From Xanthobacteraceae bacterium (GTDB lineage: Bacteria; Pseudomonadota; Alphaproteobacteria; Rhizobiales; Xanthobacteraceae), in NCBI GenBank assembly GCA_030041005.1, contig JASHOR010000059.1, forward strand, positions 1 to 47,048: DNA of 47,048 bases, written 5' to 3'. The notes below the pieces were generated by a model. The model was given only the letters and a program-made list of their open reading frames with translations. It made no database searches and had not been told where the DNA came from. Below, one piece after another: positions 5,685 to 13,117 of this stretch (positions are counted from its first letter, which is position 1; each line of letters opens with the position of its first letter). The position numbers and the translations under genes are program-made.

Positions 5685-6012
5685 TCCATGCCCTCCCTTG
5701 GGACTTGCGGTCATCTGTTTCGAGACGACTGCCTTCAGCGCAGTCTACCGCATCGGGCTTGGCCGGCAAGTCCGTCGGCCCGCCTGGTCATCGGTCGAGG
5801 CTGCAAGTGTCCTGGTCGTGGCCGGTATGCTATTTCATTGACATCGTCATACTGAGGCGGCAAGGTACTCGGGTCGCCGGACGGAGGGCGGGGCATCTCC
5901 CGGCGAAAGGGTGCGGGGGGAAGCGCGTGTGATCCTCGCCGAAGGGTGTTGGATCGCGCAGATCGTTCACGCCTGGAAGCGGCGCGCTGAATCTCCCATA
6001 AAGGGGGACTTC
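5685..6012. other. Gene-free divergent intergenic region between livJ and the TonB-receptor fusion gene
   Basis: About 330 bp with no convincing coding sequence. It must hold promoters for both divergent genes. A TTGACA hexamer lies at 5838-5843 on the plus strand, but no good -10 box follows at 17-18 bp, so I do not call a promoter. A ribosome site (aaaggggga) immediately precedes ATG 6013. An in-frame GTG at 5911 would put an arginine- and glutamate-rich stretch ahead of the signal peptide and is rejected as start. Confidence 0.5.
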
Positions 6013-9000
6013 ATGTCGTTGCGTGCGCGGCTGCTCGCGTCCACGTCGATCCTCATCACCTCGGTTTATGCCGGCGCGTTGGCACAGACGGCGCCATCCG
6101 CTTCGCCGCCGCAACCGTCGCCGCCGTCCAGTCAGGCGCCGTCCGCGCCGCCTTCGCCGGCAGCGACCGCTCCTGCAGCGCCGGTGGCGGGGACGTCGGG
6201 CGCTACGCAATTGCCGACCATCACGGTGTCCGGCAACCACGCGCCGCCGCGCCGACCGCCTCGCGCCCGCCCGCCGAAGAACGCAACGGCACAGTCCGCC
6301 ACCGTGCCGGCTCCGTCGCCGCCGGCCTCGCCCTACGAGACCGGCGCGCCCGACATCGCCGGCGGGCCCGCGATAGCGCCGACCATGGCCAGTCAGATGA
6401 CGGTTTCAGGTGAGGACCTCAACGCGCGTCCAATCACCCGGCCCGGCGAGATCGTCGAAGCGGCGCCGGGGTTGATGGCGATCATGCACGCCGATGGCGG
6501 CAAGGCCAATCAGTATTACCTGCGCGGCTGGAATCTCGACCACGGCACTGATCTGGCAACGTTCTGGGACGACATCCCGATCAATCTGCCCACGCATGCG
6601 CACGGCCAGGGTTACACCGACCTCAACTGGCTCATTCCGGAAACCGTCAGCGGGCTGGATATCCGCAAAGGGCCGTACTGGGCCGACGTCGGCGATTTTG
6701 AAAACGCCGGTAACCTGCACATCAATCTGCGAGACAGCGTCGAGCAGAACATCGAGTCAGTCACCGTGGGCAGCTTCGGCTACCAGCGATACCTCACGCT
6801 CGGCTCGACCAAGGCTGGCGACGGAAATTTGCTCTATGCCGGCGAATTCACCGGTTACGACGGCCCGTGGACTTCATCGGACGACATGAAGAAGTTCAGC
6901 GGGCTCTTGCGCTACAGCCAAGGCACGGCGACCGACGGCTTCTCGCTGACCGGGATGGCCTACACCAACACCTGGAATTCGACCGATCAGAATCCGCTGC
7001 GGTATTACACGACCGGCCAAATGGGCCTTTACGGCACGTTCGATCCGACCGACGGCGGCGATACCAGCCGTTTCTCGCTGTCGGGGAGGGTGGCGCAAAC
7101 CACCGACGACGGCTCGTGGAAGGCCAACGCGTATCTCGTCAAATACACGATGGACCTGTGGAACAACTACACCTATGACACCAACGATCCGGCCTTCGGC
7201 GATCAGTTTCACCAGCACGACGACCGCATCTACGGCGGCGGCGGCGCCTCGCGCACCTTCGACGCCAGCTTTGCCGGCCTTCCGACCGAGACCGTGGTCG
7301 GCGTGCAAGGCCGCGACGACAACATCATCACGGCACTGAATTTCTCGGACCAGCGGTACTTGCTGGCGCCGTATATCTACGATCACGTCAATGAGGGCAA
7401 CGCCGCCATCTACGCCGAGAACACGGTCCATTGGACCGACTGGCTGCGGACGGTGGTCGGCTGGCGCGGTGATTACTACGCCGCCTCGGTGGATTCGATG
7501 CTGCAACCGGCGAATTCGGGTAATCCCCAAGAGGCCATCGGCAGCCCGAAATTCCGCATGGTACTCGGGCCGTTCGACAAGACCGAGTTCTTCGTCGGCG
7601 CCGGCATGGGCTACCACAGCAACGACGCGCGCGCGACGACGGTGACCGAAGTACCCGGCGATCCGACGACGCCGGAGGGCTCGTCGCCGTTTCTGGTACG
7701 CTCGCGCGGGGCCGAGGTCGGCGTGCGCACCAAGCTCATCCCGAACCTCGACAGCTCGATCAGTCTTTTCTACCTGCATCAAGACTCGGAATTGTTCTTC
7801 GACGGCGACACCGGCGACACCACGGCGGGCTTGCCCAGCCAGCGCACCGGGGTCGAGTTCACCAACGATTACCGTCCCGTCTCCTGGGCTCACATCGATG
7901 CCGATTTGGCGCTCTCGCGCGCCCGCTTTCTCGGCTTCGATACGACGCAGGAGGCGCTTTACGAATCGCTTGCCGGTTATCCGCAGGCGCAGATCGGCAA
8001 TGCGCCGGGCAATTACGTTTACAACGCGCCGTGGATGGTGGCGTCGGCGGGGCTCACGCTCGGCGAGAAGACCGGCTGGTTCAGTGCGCTGCGCTGGCGC
8101 TACATTAGCTCGCGGCCGCTCACCGAGGATGGGGTCTTCCAGTCGCCGCCGATGAATATAATCAATGCCGGGGTCGGTTACCGGTTCGACAACGGCTGGC
8201 GCATTCAGCTTGATGCGCTCAATCTACTCGACTCGACCGCGGATTTAGCCACCTACGCCTACGGCTCGCTACTCACCTCCGACGCTATGTTCGCCATGTG
8301 CTACCCGACGGCGAAAATCCCGGCGGCGGTCTGCGCCAACGGCGTGATGGACTATATCTACCATCCGATCGAACCGTTGGCCTTCCGGCTCACGCTTGCC
8401 GGACCGCTGGAGACGATCAATACCATCGACATTCCGGCGATGGCCGCCGAGATGAAACGGTCGTTCCCGGCGGCGCCGCTGCAGGCGGGGAATTACGGTT
8501 GGACCGGGTTCTATGTCGGCGCCCATGTCGGCCTGTCGCGATCGACTACCAGCGGAAGTACCGTCAACACGGTGACCGGCGCCGCATCGGCACCGATCTA
8601 CGGCAATCCGCCGGATTGGCACGGCGGTATCCAGGTCGGCTACGATTACATGCTGCCGTCGCGTGTCGTGATCGGCCTCACCGGGGACATTTCTTCCGGC
8701 GGCACGAAAGCAACCACGATCACGGATGCGTCCGGCACCAGCACCGGCCAGCTCACCGTCTTCGACAGTGAGAGCCTCCGCGCGCGTCTCGGTTATGCCG
8801 TCAACAACGTTTTGTTTTACGGCACCGGCGGCTGGGCCTGGTCGAGCAATCAATACATCCGCACGCAACTCACCGGCACGCTCAACCTCGCGACCGCCGG
8901 TACCGATGAGGCGGTCAACAAATACCTGGATGGCTGGACCGCGGGCGCGGGGGTGGCGGTGGCGATTGCGCAAAACTGGAACGCGTTCGCCGAGTATCGC

Positions 9001-9855
9001 TACACGGATTACGGTTCTACGACGACCACGCTGCCGTTCTCGCAGCTCTCCACGACGTCCGCCACCAAAGTGAGTGAGGTCGATGTCGGAGTGAATTACA
9101 AGTTCGACTGGGGAGCGCCGCAAGGCACGCCTTCCGTTCCGGTCTACAAGGCACCGTCCGCCGCCTACGCCGGCAGACCAACGCTTTTCGTCAAGGCGCC
9201 GTCCATTTCTCCGGCGTTCACTTGGACCGGACTTTATGTCGGCGGCGATGGTGGCTACGGCTGGCATGCTGCCAATGGCACCCTGACCACGGCGGCAGGT
9301 GCGGACTTGGCCGGGTACGATTACAACGTGAATGGCCCATTTGCCGGCGTCTTTGTTGGCGGCGATTATCAGCTCGGTCGGTTGGTGGCGGGGGTGGAAG
9401 GCGACTGGCAGCGCTCCAACCTGGCCGGCAACAATCAGCAACTCGCTGCGCTCAATGCGGTTGGCACCTTCCCGGGCGGGCCCTTTACCGTCTCGACCAC
9501 GATCAAGGACTACGAGTCGGTCCGTGGCCGGCTCGGTCTCGCGTTCGGCCGCTTTCTCCTGTTTGGTACCGGAGGCGTCGCGTGGGGCGATCCTTCGAAC
9601 GCATACGCCCTTCTCGGGTCGGCTCCGTTCGTGGTCAACGGCGGCAATTCATTCGGTTGGACGGCCGGTGCCGGATTGGATTACGCCCTGACCGACAATG
9701 TCTTCGGCCGCATCGAATACCGCTACACCGATCTTGGCACTTCCAGTTTCGTAAACGCCGCGGCCGACGCTGCCGACGCCGCCAATCGCGTGCCGATCAG
9801 CGACGTTCGCGTCGGCTTCGCCTACAAGTTTGATCCGCTCGCCGGCAATGATTGA
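6013..9855 (+). CDS. TonB-dependent receptor fused to two OmpA/Omp25-type outer-membrane barrels
   Basis: A single uninterrupted 1280-residue frame. Residues 1-25 are a signal peptide ending ALAQ, followed by a Pro/Ala-rich linker (about 26-115) holding a TonB-box-like LPTITVSG. The plug follows: MTVSGEDLNARPITRPGEIV, then NQYYLRGWNLDHGTD and THAHGQGYTDLNWLIPE. The receptor barrel runs to about residue 800 (EPLAFRLTLAGPL). Then come two separate eight-strand-type barrels of the Omp25/Omp31 class: about 826-1040 (YGWTGFYVGAHVGLS to VDVGVNYKFDWG) and 1068-1280 (FTWTGLYVGGDGGYGW to VRVGFAYKFDPLAGND), each with internal RARLGYA/RGRLGLAFG and EYRYTDxG motifs. A fusion of this kind is unknown to me. 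The substrate is unknown. The cupin gene begins 39 bp downstream, suggesting an operon. Confidence 0.88.
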   Translation: MSLRARLLASTSILITSVYAGALAQTAPSASPPQPSPPSSQAPSAPPSPAATAPAAPVAGTSGATQLPTITVSGNHAPPRRPPRARPPKNATAQSATVPAPSPPASPYETGAPDIAGGPAIAPTMASQMTVSGEDLNARPITRPGEIVEAAPGLMAIMHADGGKANQYYLRGWNLDHGTDLATFWDDIPINLPTHAHGQGYTDLNWLIPETVSGLDIRKGPYWADVGDFENAGNLHINLRDSVEQNIESVTVGSFGYQRYLTLGSTKAGDGNLLYAGEFTGYDGPWTSSDDMKKFSGLLRYSQGTATDGFSLTGMAYTNTWNSTDQNPLRYYTTGQMGLYGTFDPTDGGDTSRFSLSGRVAQTTDDGSWKANAYLVKYTMDLWNNYTYDTNDPAFGDQFHQHDDRIYGGGGASRTFDASFAGLPTETVVGVQGRDDNIITALNFSDQRYLLAPYIYDHVNEGNAAIYAENTVHWTDWLRTVVGWRGDYYAASVDSMLQPANSGNPQEAIGSPKFRMVLGPFDKTEFFVGAGMGYHSNDARATTVTEVPGDPTTPEGSSPFLVRSRGAEVGVRTKLIPNLDSSISLFYLHQDSELFFDGDTGDTTAGLPSQRTGVEFTNDYRPVSWAHIDADLALSRARFLGFDTTQEALYESLAGYPQAQIGNAPGNYVYNAPWMVASAGLTLGEKTGWFSALRWRYISSRPLTEDGVFQSPPMNIINAGVGYRFDNGWRIQLDALNLLDSTADLATYAYGSLLTSDAMFAMCYPTAKIPAAVCANGVMDYIYHPIEPLAFRLTLAGPLETINTIDIPAMAAEMKRSFPAAPLQAGNYGWTGFYVGAHVGLSRSTTSGSTVNTVTGAASAPIYGNPPDWHGGIQVGYDYMLPSRVVIGLTGDISSGGTKATTITDASGTSTGQLTVFDSESLRARLGYAVNNVLFYGTGGWAWSSNQYIRTQLTGTLNLATAGTDEAVNKYLDGWTAGAGVAVAIAQNWNAFAEYRYTDYGSTTTTLPFSQLSTTSATKVSEVDVGVNYKFDWGAPQGTPSVPVYKAPSAAYAGRPTLFVKAPSISPAFTWTGLYVGGDGGYGWHAANGTLTTAAGADLAGYDYNVNGPFAGVFVGGDYQLGRLVAGVEGDWQRSNLAGNNQQLAALNAVGTFPGGPFTVSTTIKDYESVRGRLGLAFGRFLLFGTGGVAWGDPSNAYALLGSAPFVVNGGNSFGWTAGAGLDYALTDNVFGRIEYRYTDLGTSSFVNAAADAADAANRVPISDVRVGFAYKFDPLAGND

Positions 9856-9894
9856 GCAGCAGAATGAAGGGCACGGCGGGTATCGGAGTTGAGA

Positions 9895-11106
9895 ATGGCG
9901 AATCGAGTCGAGAAGACAGCGTTTGATCCAACCGCTCTGATCTCTCCCCTCGGGTTCGAGGATTTCTTCCGTGAACACTGGGAGCGCAAGCCTCTGCATC
10001 TGTCCCGTGGGGATGCGCACTATTATGACAACGTTCTCACCAACGCGGATCTGGAGAGCATCATTTCCTCTGCCGACCTGCGTTACCCGGCGGTCCAACT
10101 CGCCAAGAACGGCTCCTACCTCCCACCCGAGGCCTATACCAGGAATATCAAGCACGGCACCGAGTCCTTCATCGGTGTGCCCGATCTTCAGCAAGTTCAA
10201 TCCGAATACCGCTCTGGCGCGACCGTGGTACTGCCGGCGCTGCAGCGGACTTGGACGCCGTTGCGTCGATTGTGCGCGGCGCTGGAAGACCAGTTCAGCC
10301 ATCCGGTCCACGCCAATGCATATCTGACGCCGGGAGACTCGCCCGGGTTCACGCCGCATTACGATACCCATGAGGTCTTTGTTCTGCAGATCGCCGGCAC
10401 CAAGCGTTGGCGCGTGTTCCGGCCCCCGCAACTGCTGCCGCACCGCAGCCAGCCGTTCGCACCGATCGGCTTCACTTTGCCGCCCCCGCTCCTCACACTC
10501 GATCTGAGGCCCGGCGATCTGCTGTATCTGCCGCGCGGTTTTGTGCACGCCGCGCACACCTCCAATGGCCATTCCGCACACGTCACCATCGGCATAACCG
10601 TCTACACCTGGGTCGAACTCATTGGCGAGCTTGCCGGCGCGGCAAAGGACATCGCTGCCCTGCGCGCGTCTCTGCCGCCCGGCTTTGCCTCACGCGAGGA
10701 ACTCAAACAGACGCTGCGGCAGAATCTTGACCAATGCCTCGAACTGTTGCGCGGAAACGTCGATGCAGCGCGCCTGATCGACGGTTTTTTGCAGAAGGTC
10801 ACCTCCGCTCGCGCTCGTCCGCAGGACGCGTTCAACTCGCAGGCAACGGTGGTCGGCTTGCAGACCCGGCTGAAGACGCCCGACACGGGCAATTATCGTC
10901 TTTCGACAGAACGGGGCAGGGTCGTCATGGAATTCGCGGGCAAAAAATTCGTGCTGCCCGACGATATCCGGGCGACGATCGACGAGATGTGCAGAAAGCC
11001 GGCATTCCGGCCAATAGACCTGTCCAGCCCATTAAGCAACGAGGGCAGGCTCACCTTGTCCCGCTATCTGTACGGTGAGGGCTTCCTCAAGCTGGCGGAG
11101 GATTGA
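9895..11106 (+). CDS. JmjC/cupin-4 family Fe(II)/2-oxoglutarate oxygenase
   Basis: 403 residues from ATG 9895, six bases after GGAG; a TTG two codons earlier is possible. The N-terminus has the family motif FFREHWERKPLHLSRGD. The double-stranded beta-helix carries the iron triad: His155 and Asp157 in TPHYDTHEVFVLQI, and His218 in LPRGFVHAAHTS. The segments AGTKRWRVF and LRPGDLLYLPRGF complete the cupin-4 (MINA53/NO66, RoxA-like) signature. A C-terminal region of about 160 residues looks like the winged-helix or dimer part of these enzymes (GKKFVLPDDIRATIDEM). Known relatives hydroxylate ribosomal proteins or act on peptides; the target here is unknown. It sits between the fused TonB receptor (39 bp upstream) and a nucleotidyltransferase gene (6 bp downstream). 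Confidence 0.85.
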   Translation: MANRVEKTAFDPTALISPLGFEDFFREHWERKPLHLSRGDAHYYDNVLTNADLESIISSADLRYPAVQLAKNGSYLPPEAYTRNIKHGTESFIGVPDLQQVQSEYRSGATVVLPALQRTWTPLRRLCAALEDQFSHPVHANAYLTPGDSPGFTPHYDTHEVFVLQIAGTKRWRVFRPPQLLPHRSQPFAPIGFTLPPPLLTLDLRPGDLLYLPRGFVHAAHTSNGHSAHVTIGITVYTWVELIGELAGAAKDIAALRASLPPGFASREELKQTLRQNLDQCLELLRGNVDAARLIDGFLQKVTSARARPQDAFNSQATVVGLQTRLKTPDTGNYRLSTERGRVVMEFAGKKFVLPDDIRATIDEMCRKPAFRPIDLSSPLSNEGRLTLSRYLYGEGFLKLAED

Positions 11107-11112
11107 CGATCG

Positions 11113-11937
11113 GTGATCCAGCCCCAACGCATCGGTCGTTATCTGACCGTCGACGAATGCGGGTATGTTGTGCCCGATGTTGCGGCCGATCGTATCGGTG
11201 CCATTTGGAAGCCGCTCGTGACATTCGTGCGCGACACCTTGATAGGCCGAAAGGGCGTCCGTTCGGTCTATCTACGCGGTTCGATCGCGCGCGGGCTGGC
11301 GATGGAGAACGTTTCCGATGCCGATTTCATTTACCTGTCCGAAACCGCGTTCGAGTGGGCGGATGTGCAATTGGAACGGGCAGTCGAAACGAAGTTCGCT
11401 TTCGTGAAAGGGCTTGAGCTGTCCCGCCTCGATCGCTCCACACTCGAAAAGGTTGGCCCGCGCCAGCGGCGGCCGTATTTTCACATGCTGCTCAAGACGC
11501 AATGCCTGTTTCTCGCCGGCGAGGATATCGCCAGGGACATCCCGCTCGTCAAGATCGGCCCCGAGATGGTCAGTCACGCGTTCTCGTTGCAAGGCGACTT
11601 CTCGCGATTGCCAAGCTTGCTGGAGGAAGGCCGCAAGATCGGCGTCGAGCGGGCCATGCACCAATGGTTTTCGCGAAGAATCGTGCGTTCAGGTTTCGAA
11701 GTTACGCTGGACAGAAACGACCGCTTCACCCGCGATCTCTATCTTTGCTACGAGCAGTTTGCCCGGTTCTATCCCTCCCGCGCCGGCGAGATGTTTCGCG
11801 TCCTGGTCAATTGCCTTAACGGTGGCGAGAGCCCGCTGCACTATGCAGAACTCGTACGCCATTTGGCGGAGGAAAGTGCGCGCCTTACCGCTGCTGCACC
11901 TGCACCGTCACGTGGGAGAGGGCGCGAAAGCGCCTGA
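11113..11937 (+). CDS. Pol-beta-superfamily nucleotidyltransferase-like protein
   Basis: 274 residues from GTG 11113, six bases after the cupin stop. The sequence VYLRGSIARGLAMENVSDAD contains the nucleotidyltransferase signature: Gly56-Ser57 followed by Asp69-x-Asp71, the metal-binding pair. The rest is predicted alpha-helical (FSLQGDFSRLPSLLEEGRKI; LYLCYEQFARFYPSRAGEMF) and I do not recognise its family. Such proteins transfer NMP to proteins, tRNAs or small molecules. The C-terminal tail (APAPSRGRGRESA) is read from DNA antisense to the dmeF 3' end, with a 53-bp overlap of the two genes, so the original stop may have been lost. Third gene of the apparent TonB receptor-JmjC-NTase operon; function unknown. 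Confidence 0.7.
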   Translation: MIQPQRIGRYLTVDECGYVVPDVAADRIGAIWKPLVTFVRDTLIGRKGVRSVYLRGSIARGLAMENVSDADFIYLSETAFEWADVQLERAVETKFAFVKGLELSRLDRSTLEKVGPRQRRPYFHMLLKTQCLFLAGEDIARDIPLVKIGPEMVSHAFSLQGDFSRLPSLLEEGRKIGVERAMHQWFSRRIVRSGFEVTLDRNDRFTRDLYLCYEQFARFYPSRAGEMFRVLVNCLNGGESPLHYAELVRHLAEESARLTAAAPAPSRGRGRESA

Positions 11938-13117
11938 GCAGCGACTGATAGTATTCCGCTCCGCGCGGTCGTTGGGTGGCGATGGAAAGAATTGCGGCAA
12001 GATGACCGGGACCGAGCCGCCACACATGCAAGTCGGTGAGCCGATCGCCATCGGCTTCGACGACGGCGCGCATGCGCTCGGCCATGGTGCGATCGGGATT
12101 CATGTCGAGCAGGATGGCGCCGGTGTCGCGGATGAGACTGTAGGACCAGACGGCGATGACGATCGCGCCGACGAGGCCGACGACAGGATCCATGAAGGTC
12201 CAGCCAAAGGACCATGCGAGCGAAAGCCCGACGATGACCAACAGCGAAACCGCCGCGTCCGCCAGCACGTGAACGATCGCGGCGCGCATGTTGTTGTCGC
12301 GACTGGTCGCGCCGTGAGCGTGTTCGTGCTCGGCAAACTCGACATCGTGCGTTTCCCGGCCGCGATCGAGCGATATGTGCGCGGTAAAGGCGTGCGGTTC
12401 GGGAATCTCGTCGAGTGATTCGAGATAGCCGCCGCGGGCGGCGAGCGCGAACGTTTGCCGCGCGCCGTCGGCGCGCACGGTCTCGACGCTGATCCGGTCG
12501 GCGGCGAGCTCCTTGCCGGCGCAGGACAGGCGAAAGCGCGGCGCCACGCCGTCCTCGAATATTTCCAGGGTCAGCGCGCCGGCGCCGGTCTGCAGATAGT
12601 GCGCTTCGTCATGGTCATGCTCATGGCCGGCATGGGAATGGCCGTGGCCATGATGCCGACCGGCACCGCCGCCGCTGAGCAACAGAACGCTGGCGATATT
12701 GACGATCAGCCCGAGCGCGGCGATCGGTATGGCCTGGCCGAATTTGATCGAGACCGGCCAGATGAAGCGGCCAAGCGCTTCATAGCCGATGAGGATCGCG
12801 ATCATCGCCAGCACGATGGCGCTGGCGAAACCGGCAAGGTCGCCGAGCTTGCCGGTGCCGAAGGAGAAGCGCGCATCGTCGGCATGATGGCGGGCGTAGC
12901 GATAGGCGAGTGCGGCAAGCAGGAGCGCGCTCGCATGGGTCGACATGTGCAGGCCGTCGGCCACCAGCGCAATCGAGCCGAACAGAAGACCGCCAACGAT
13001 TTCGACCGCCATCATCGCGCTGCAGAGCGCAATCACCATCCAGGTGCGGCGCTCGTTGGTCGCGTGTCCTTCGCCGAGAAACACATGGGTGTGGACGCCT
13101 GGAACGATGTCCGCCAT
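11885..13117 (-). CDS. dmeF: Cation diffusion facilitator DmeF (Co2+/Ni2+ efflux)
   Basis: 410 residues. This is a cation diffusion facilitator with the DmeF pattern: VADGLHMSTHASALLLAALAYR in helix 2 (HMSTHA, where most CDF members have HMxxD), HVLADA in helix 5, and a long histidine-rich cytoplasmic loop (HHGHGHSHAGHEHDHDEAHY, about residues 154-173). An inserted segment of about 90 residues precedes the second half, as in other DmeF proteins. It would expel Co2+ or Ni2+ from the cytoplasm by proton antiport. The dmeR repressor gene lies 40 bp upstream on the same strand and shares the operator, so efflux should be induced by metal. The 3' end overlaps the convergent nucleotidyltransferase gene by 53 bp. 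Confidence 0.93.
   Translation of the reverse strand: MADIVPGVHTHVFLGEGHATNERRTWMVIALCSAMMAVEIVGGLLFGSIALVADGLHMSTHASALLLAALAYRYARHHADDARFSFGTGKLGDLAGFASAIVLAMIAILIGYEALGRFIWPVSIKFGQAIPIAALGLIVNIASVLLLSGGGAGRHHGHGHSHAGHEHDHDEAHYLQTGAGALTLEIFEDGVAPRFRLSCAGKELAADRISVETVRADGARQTFALAARGGYLESLDEIPEPHAFTAHISLDRGRETHDVEFAEHEHAHGATSRDNNMRAAIVHVLADAAVSLLVIVGLSLAWSFGWTFMDPVVGLVGAIVIAVWSYSLIRDTGAILLDMNPDRTMAERMRAVVEADGDRLTDLHVWRLGPGHLAAILSIATQRPRGAEYYQSLLRRFRALSHVTVQVQQR

Follow-up and report, generated by a model that had tools for sequence, protein, structure and literature searches.

A TonB-dependent receptor joined to two Omp25-type barrels: a probable three-barrel nickel receptor in Xanthobacteraceae

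Introduction

Outer-membrane proteins that unite several β-barrels in one chain were described in 2021 (Solan et al., PNAS, DOI 10.1073/pnas.2104059118), and papers citing that work describe GfcD and YjbH as carrying two barrels in one polypeptide each. Here we describe a gene at positions 6013–9855 of a 47,048-nucleotide stretch of DNA (contig JASHOR010000059.1, assembly GCA_030041005.1) from a soil-dwelling Xanthobacteraceae bacterium; the whole stretch is called the window below. As far as these sources go, the encoded protein resembles GfcD, YjbH and the proteins of Solan et al. in holding several outer-membrane barrels in one chain, and differs from GfcD and YjbH in consisting of a 22-strand receptor with a plug followed by two barrels of eight strands each, for a total of about 38. 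An earlier sequence-only reading of this gene knew of no fusions between a 22-strand receptor and small barrels; taken as a view of such chains in general that is too broad, since multi-barrel chains as such are already known, and the window protein adds a variant to them.

NikR-repressed receptors are documented in Helicobacter (PMC5385501), and PMC11247825 names FecA3, FrpB4 and Bll6948 as Ni(II) receptors. With FrpB4, FecA3 and Bll6948 of Bradyrhizobium the window receptor shares the receptor fold, a NikR-type box and the proximity of nikR or of nickel transporters; they are named as plain receptors, whereas the window receptor carries two extra barrels. The small barrels score above the Pfam cut-off and have starts and ends similar to those of free Omp25/31-type barrels (PF13505), but lack a signal peptide of their own and are placed behind another barrel. 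Fusions of Omp25 with OprB porins from the same bacterial family, the closest relatives of small barrel 1, likewise pair an Omp25 barrel with a larger one, but there Omp25 stands ahead of its porin partner, while in the window protein Omp25 follows a receptor. The same order, receptor barrel and then PF13505 barrel, is found at loci L113/L114 and L179 (locus handles are ours) and in Ancylobacter polymorphus WP_244451181.1; these, however, belong to other receptor families, carry a single small barrel and have no noted signs of nickel. No match to a receptor–OMP_b-brl fusion was found in a search of open-licence literature. What is new to us is the receptor-8-8 layout together with its nickel setting.

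Results

One open frame with a receptor and two small barrels

The gene is a single open frame running from an ATG at 6013 to a stop at 9855 and encoding first a TonB-dependent receptor and then a pair of Omp25-type barrels (PF13505), so that at least two barrel domains lie within one frame. The frame is listed from a GTG at 5911 (1314 amino acids); the ATG at 6013 (1280 amino acids), with AAAGGGGG ahead of it, is the likelier start. The parts of the protein are as follows.

6013–9855, plus strand: three-barrel outer-membrane protein, 1280 amino acids; mature form about 133.5 kDa if cleaved after residue 24
6013–6084, plus strand: putative Sec signal peptide, 24 amino acids, by reading the sequence only
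6211–6234, plus strand: TonB-box-like LPTITVSG (residue 67) after a Pro-rich stretch, likeness judged by eye
6388–6708, plus strand: TonB-dependent receptor plug (PF07715, E-value 1.7e-8)
6709–8409, plus strand: receptor barrel, modelled with about 22 strands, last residue Leu799 (8407–8409); from PF00593 (E-value 1.6e-20), model, Foldseek and C-termini
8410–8490, plus strand: linker 1, partly helical in both models; from models and the ratio of non-synonymous to synonymous substitution rates (dN/dS)
8491–9105, plus strand: small barrel 1, Omp25-type, 8 strands in the model; from PF13505, a moderate-confidence model and tree
9106–9222, plus strand: linker 2, rich in Pro and Ala, containing YKAP/VKAP motifs and modelled without structure; from models and dN/dS
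9223–9831, plus strand: small barrel 2, Omp25-type, 8 strands in the model; from PF13505, model and tree

The octapeptide LPTITVSG resembles a TonB box and may be one. On the protein, Pfam places Plug at residues 126–232, TonB_dep_Rec_b-barrel at 300–738 and two OMP_b-brl stretches behind them (the best at 824–1031). A six-frame scan recovered PF13505 at nucleotides 8482–9105 and 9220–9831 with 65.5 and 46.5 bits, both above the curated cut-off of 28.7. Frame, Pfam and scan thus agree with the original description of a full receptor and two complete Omp25-type barrels in one polypeptide. The described barrel starts, WTGFYVG (nucleotide 8500) and WTGLYVG (9223), also hold, as do the closing YKF strands (9097 and 9823), except that each YKF carries a tail and its F is not the final residue. 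Neither small barrel has its own signal peptide; both begin within the chain. The three-part fusion as observed is confirmed and is beyond chance.

Structure prediction, which had been proposed as a check, gave about 22 + 8 + 8 strands in models of moderate confidence. An AlphaFold2 model of residues 100–1280 (37 rows; mean predicted local distance difference test score, pLDDT, 63.3; predicted template modelling score, pTM, 0.58) builds the receptor from about 22 strands and each small barrel from about 8, and a model of residues 796–1280 (9 rows; mean pLDDT 61.7, pTM 0.44) contains 8 + 8. In Foldseek the nearest folds to the receptor model are PqqU/YncD, FecA and OprC, with a template modelling score (TMt) of 0.82 to 9c4o, and a single small barrel matches OmpA (TMt 0.72), Ail (0.61) and OmpX (0.60). 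No sequence relative of the receptor was found among solved structures at E 0.001, and NCBIfam gave only sub-threshold matches to it. We also considered whether the two small barrels might form one 16-strand barrel. The top-ranked matches to the small-barrel model are FadL-type and span both barrels, but with a TM score of about 0.2 and a root-mean-square deviation above 18 they are spurious, and small barrel 1 occurs alone at two loci (L015 and L018); the idea was rejected.

The fusion is shared by divergent loci of one genus

A scan of genome contigs gave 96 related loci, the best 80 of which were all examined: six have a fused frame (L013–L018) and 74 the receptor alone. The latter include L066:5968-8376 of Bradyrhizobium sp. 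132, where the receptor gene is broken into two frames. Another locus, L042, has a Bradyrhizobium-like receptor in a record titled Frankia sp. RB7, a title that may be wrong.

Twenty genomes of the genus were searched with the junction, with matches listed down to about E 1e-10. Eight fused loci were found in seven of them (G000, G007, G008, G010, G012 and G016, and two in G017); judging by frame length and gene order these are the same sequences as L013–L018, except for L116, which comes from G007. No unfused receptor was among the matches listed for the 20 genomes, where it would have appeared, because unfused receptors of other genera score about 1e-33. Among 119 genomes drawn from 47 genera of the wider family, the fusion was found only in two members of the genus, and the unfused receptor in at least 14 genomes of other genera. 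In the order (199 genomes) no further fusion of this receptor was among the matches listed.

A search for the same three-part layout, another check proposed with the original description, was successful: all three parts occur, in an open frame, in the window, L013, L016, L017 and L116, where L017 and L116 lack the receptor N-terminus because their contigs begin inside the receptor. L015 and L018 have one small barrel only, and the L014 contig ends just past barrel 1. Seven fused loci besides the window, together with 74/74 unfused copies elsewhere, speak for a genuine fusion. The suspicion that sequencing errors hide stop codons at the junctions was not borne out: the same junctions recur in eight divergent loci, indels come in multiples of three, and dN/dS is well below 1 in the barrels.

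Selection on the parts and stepwise growth

Pairwise dN/dS among the eight fused loci ranges over 0.07–0.30 in the receptor, 0.12–0.33 in barrel 1 and 0.12–0.29 in barrel 2; linker 1 gives 0.04–1.16 (20–23 codons only) and linker 2 0.38–0.85. Many pairs are close to saturated with synonymous changes, which makes these values rough. They indicate purifying selection on all three barrels.

In a receptor tree of 81 rows built by a quick method, the eight fused rows form one clade with an SH-like approximate likelihood-ratio test (SH-aLRT) support of 100. Its earliest branches are L018 and then L015 (99 and 100), both with a single small barrel. The tree thus points to a single origin of the receptor fusion and to growth in two steps within one little-known genus, barrel 1 first and barrel 2 later. 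The fusion persists through divergence to 66% identity.

Two trees of Omp25 barrels point to separate sources for the small barrels. With 60 rows, the eight barrels 1 form one clade, whose neighbours are the Omp25 barrels fused to OprB (97/99), and the five barrels 2 form one clade placed elsewhere; with 78 rows, barrel 2 again falls outside the group of barrel 1 and Omp25-OprB (98/98). The two trees disagree on which barrel is closest to barrel 2. By these trees barrel 2 comes from another Omp25 branch than barrel 1. Its origin as a duplicate of barrel 1 is not favoured, given that the clade of barrel 1 and Omp25-OprB excludes it in both. Since L018 and L015 each carry an Omp25-OprB gene downstream of their receptor, barrel 1 may have had a local source.

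The last receptor strand lacks its terminal aromatic residue

The original description had seen in such a chain a problem for folding by the β-barrel assembly machinery (BAM), and the problem is genuine. The last receptor strand ends in Phe in 74/74 unfused copies, as the very last residue in 73, and in Leu in 8/8 fused copies (Leu799 in the window); the aromatic terminal residue of a TonB-dependent receptor is thus not present in the fused receptors.

We then compared Omp25 barrels across the fetched loci, with nine rows set aside beforehand (seven with a gap, two at contig ends). Phe closes 46/46 C-terminal copies versus 20/32 internal ones, the others ending in Leu (10), Ile (1) or Pro (1) (Fisher test, P-value 5e-6, relatedness ignored). 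On the barrel tree non-Phe arose about seven times, always in internal copies. A relatedness-corrected sign test found seven independent pairs, about two of them informative, which puts significance out of reach. Small barrel 1 retains Phe despite its internal position in 5/5 three-barrel loci, and this counts against a general rule. Other receptor fusions are mixed: the last receptor strand of L113/L114 has Leu at the position where plasmid relatives (at most 44% identity) end with Trp or with Phe, in some cases followed by a tail, and a third fusion has Leu in L179 and Phe in the Ancylobacter polymorphus relative.

A possible, though doubtful, explanation is that one full C-terminal β-signal is enough, BAM engaging the last barrel and the earlier ones being inserted without a canonical terminal aromatic; internal barrels would therefore be free to lose it. 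If true, serial multi-barrel assembly by BAM could be tested in natural proteins. Several BAM signals are the subject of an eLife paper (PMC10945584).

Nickel context and neighbouring genes

The sequence-only reading overlooked the nickel context of the gene, which is formed by an upstream box, nikR and a downstream exporter gene. The features around the fused gene are the following.

5825–5852, plus strand: NikR-type operator GTATGC-N16-TCATAC, with TTGACA within; one mismatch to GTATGA-N16-TCATAC
9889–11106, plus strand: gene for a JmjC-domain (NO66/MINA-like) oxygenase (PF08007, E-value 3.8e-27; Protein Data Bank relatives NO66 and MINA)
11113–11937, plus strand: nucleotidyltransferase-like gene (PF01909, E-value 8.5e-4, just below cut-off)
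11885–13117, minus strand: dmeF, CDF-family (cation diffusion facilitator) efflux transporter for Co(II)/Ni(II) (NCBIfam NF033827, 457.9 bits, cut-off 250)

Boxes were scored against GTATGA-N16-TCATAC, which we take to be the NikR operator consensus. With up to two mismatches allowed, they are present in 33/78 upstream windows of related loci (26 of them perfect) versus 18/1550 control windows of the same length from the same loci, and versus 0.4 expected in shuffles. Every other fused locus with upstream DNA has one (5/5), with 0 or 1 mismatch.

The nikR gene lies inside the fetched flank of 21/81 loci (two of them confirmed by NCBIfam). Among the 20 genus genomes it was found in 12, comprising 7/7 with a fused receptor and 5/13 others (one a partial match); the copy of the window genome is at C72:40228-40617 (E-value 2.2e-55). 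A conserved 270-amino-acid frame without family beside several receptors proved to be the antisense of nikR and was discarded. Downstream of the receptor, dmeF occurs in the window, L015, L016, L018 and L116, and a NicO-like gene below family cut-offs is present in L064, L078 and L084. By this context the product of the window gene is very probably a NikR-controlled nickel receptor, and we infer nickel as its substrate.

The JmjC gene is the next gene in the same direction. It follows the fused gene in 5/5 three-barrel loci and has a strong match in 7/20 genus genomes; in the genome of L014 it begins on another contig. The search of the 20 genus genomes did not find it in G012, whose fused receptor carries a single small barrel. 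The JmjC gene may have arrived together with barrel 2.

In genome G011, which lacks the receptor, a perfect NikR-type box (L169:5725-5752) lies between nikR and an Omp25-OprB gene; the porin fusion there may therefore be a second entry for nickel.

Omp25 barrels in other fusions

Several partners are found fused to Omp25 barrels within the genus, among them OprB, BcsS, BBP7 and a second Omp25, and the receptor fusion is therefore part of a wider habit. Omp25 in front of an OprB-type porin is frequent in genus and family (L003:190-2586, L015:11623-13593, L018:9406-11508, L100–L110; assigned by Pfam on L003 only and by likeness for the others). At L113:487-4464 and L114:2576-6533, a receptor of another family fused to an Omp25 barrel stands directly behind a free Omp25 gene. 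In the 905-residue protein of L115:198-2912, a middle barrel that weakly matches Omptin is flanked by an Omp25 barrel on either side. Double Omp25 proteins are encoded at L009:1000-2433, in the window's own genome, and at L120:1704-3236. Omp25 is combined with a BcsS barrel at L122:1446-2903 and with a BBP7 barrel at L124:1684-3783. Outside the genus, the Ancylobacter polymorphus ZM13 fusion WP_244451181.1, of 1097 amino acids, lies on a finished plasmid, beside fhuF and fhuB.

Discussion

The window protein is most likely a single uncut three-barrel nickel receptor. We consider the following full account moderately probable. The receptor would be NikR-repressed and TonB-dependent and would take nickel, probably as a nickel chelate, and two Omp25-type 8-strand barrels would have been appended to its C-terminus one after another. 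Sec would export the chain, and BAM would insert all three barrels, joined by periplasmic linkers; because all barrels have an even strand number, all termini can be periplasmic, and topology would pose no obstacle. The small barrels would act as built-in neighbours that fix the membrane surroundings of the receptor, as scaffold or spacer, in a 1:1:1 stoichiometry. This scaffold role is the weakest step, and we put it forward tentatively. Layout, conservation, single origin, stepwise growth, the NikR-type box, nickel neighbours and selection on all parts are established at the level of sequence; insertion of all three barrels and absence of cleavage are what we infer.

Several observations weigh against this account. 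The models, only of moderate confidence, do not fix the packing of the barrels. Metal ligands are scarce in the small barrels (two His in barrel 1, one His in barrel 2, no Cys). Purifying selection on them could reflect only the harm done by misfolded barrels, and the loosely constrained linker 2 (0.38–0.85) would suit a cleavable or idle spacer. The barrel-1 tree does not follow the receptor branching: it pairs the L015 barrel with that of the window, a weakly supported placement (95/52) that may be a sign of gene conversion. As for regulation, 45/78 upstream windows have no box at up to two mismatches; taken alone, the window has box-like sites at that threshold no more often than chance (2 versus 2.05 in shuffles); the pattern used genome-wide was broadened by one letter to fit the window, and its search at one mismatch yields equally many sites with a backwards control; and nikR of the window genome sits on a different contig (C72) from the receptor.

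Stop-codon loss may simply have joined the barrels, with selection acting only against misfolding and nothing gained for nickel uptake. The readiness with which Omp25 is fused to unrelated barrels (OprB, BcsS, BBP7, other Omp25 and two other receptor families) is in keeping with such accretion, as are the 6/17 PF13505 matches of the window genome that lie in multi-barrel frames (the BcsS-type one, L008, by likeness to L122). Yet the fusion has lasted to 66% identity, no unfused copy is among the matches listed for the genus, and a second barrel was added later, so we regard accretion without function as not very likely.

Cleavage of the linkers during or after export, freeing an ordinary receptor and one or two Omp25 proteins in equal amounts, we hold to be unlikely, a shade more so than accretion. 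Linker 2 speaks for it, being Pro/Ala-rich, unstructured in both models and loosely constrained, and retaining a VKAP motif like that after the signal peptide in free Omp25 proteins; linker 1, however, is better conserved and partly helical. Release of small barrels 1 would give no reason for the retained receptor Leu, and a receptor freed in linker 1 would be without the terminal Phe found in 74/74 unfused relatives.

Return to the preferred account, an uncut nickel receptor, raises the question of its ligand. The DmeF family name covers cobalt export besides nickel, the nearest folds are PqqU/YncD, FecA and OprC, and all NCBIfam matches are sub-threshold, which would allow a receptor for cobalt or another ligand with the NikR signs reflecting regulation only. 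Box and nikR, on the other hand, indicate nickel, and NikR-repressed receptors are a pattern documented in Helicobacter (PMC5385501); another ligand therefore seems quite improbable. Sequencing or assembly errors masking junction stop codons are rejected as extremely improbable: although the genus is represented by draft genomes only, several of them titled as metagenome assemblies of one project, eight divergent loci share the in-frame junctions under constraint, and a comparable fusion lies on the finished Ancylobacter plasmid.

If folded as one chain, the window protein would be a three-barrel protein of about 38 strands, a TonB-driven transporter with its own small-barrel neighbours. It would offer a means to test whether BAM can insert several barrels per chain, whether a terminal aromatic is required in internal barrels, and whether a transporter benefits from small barrels that have no known pore. 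Since the intermediate with one added barrel is present in the tree, the gain of barrels may be traced step by step.

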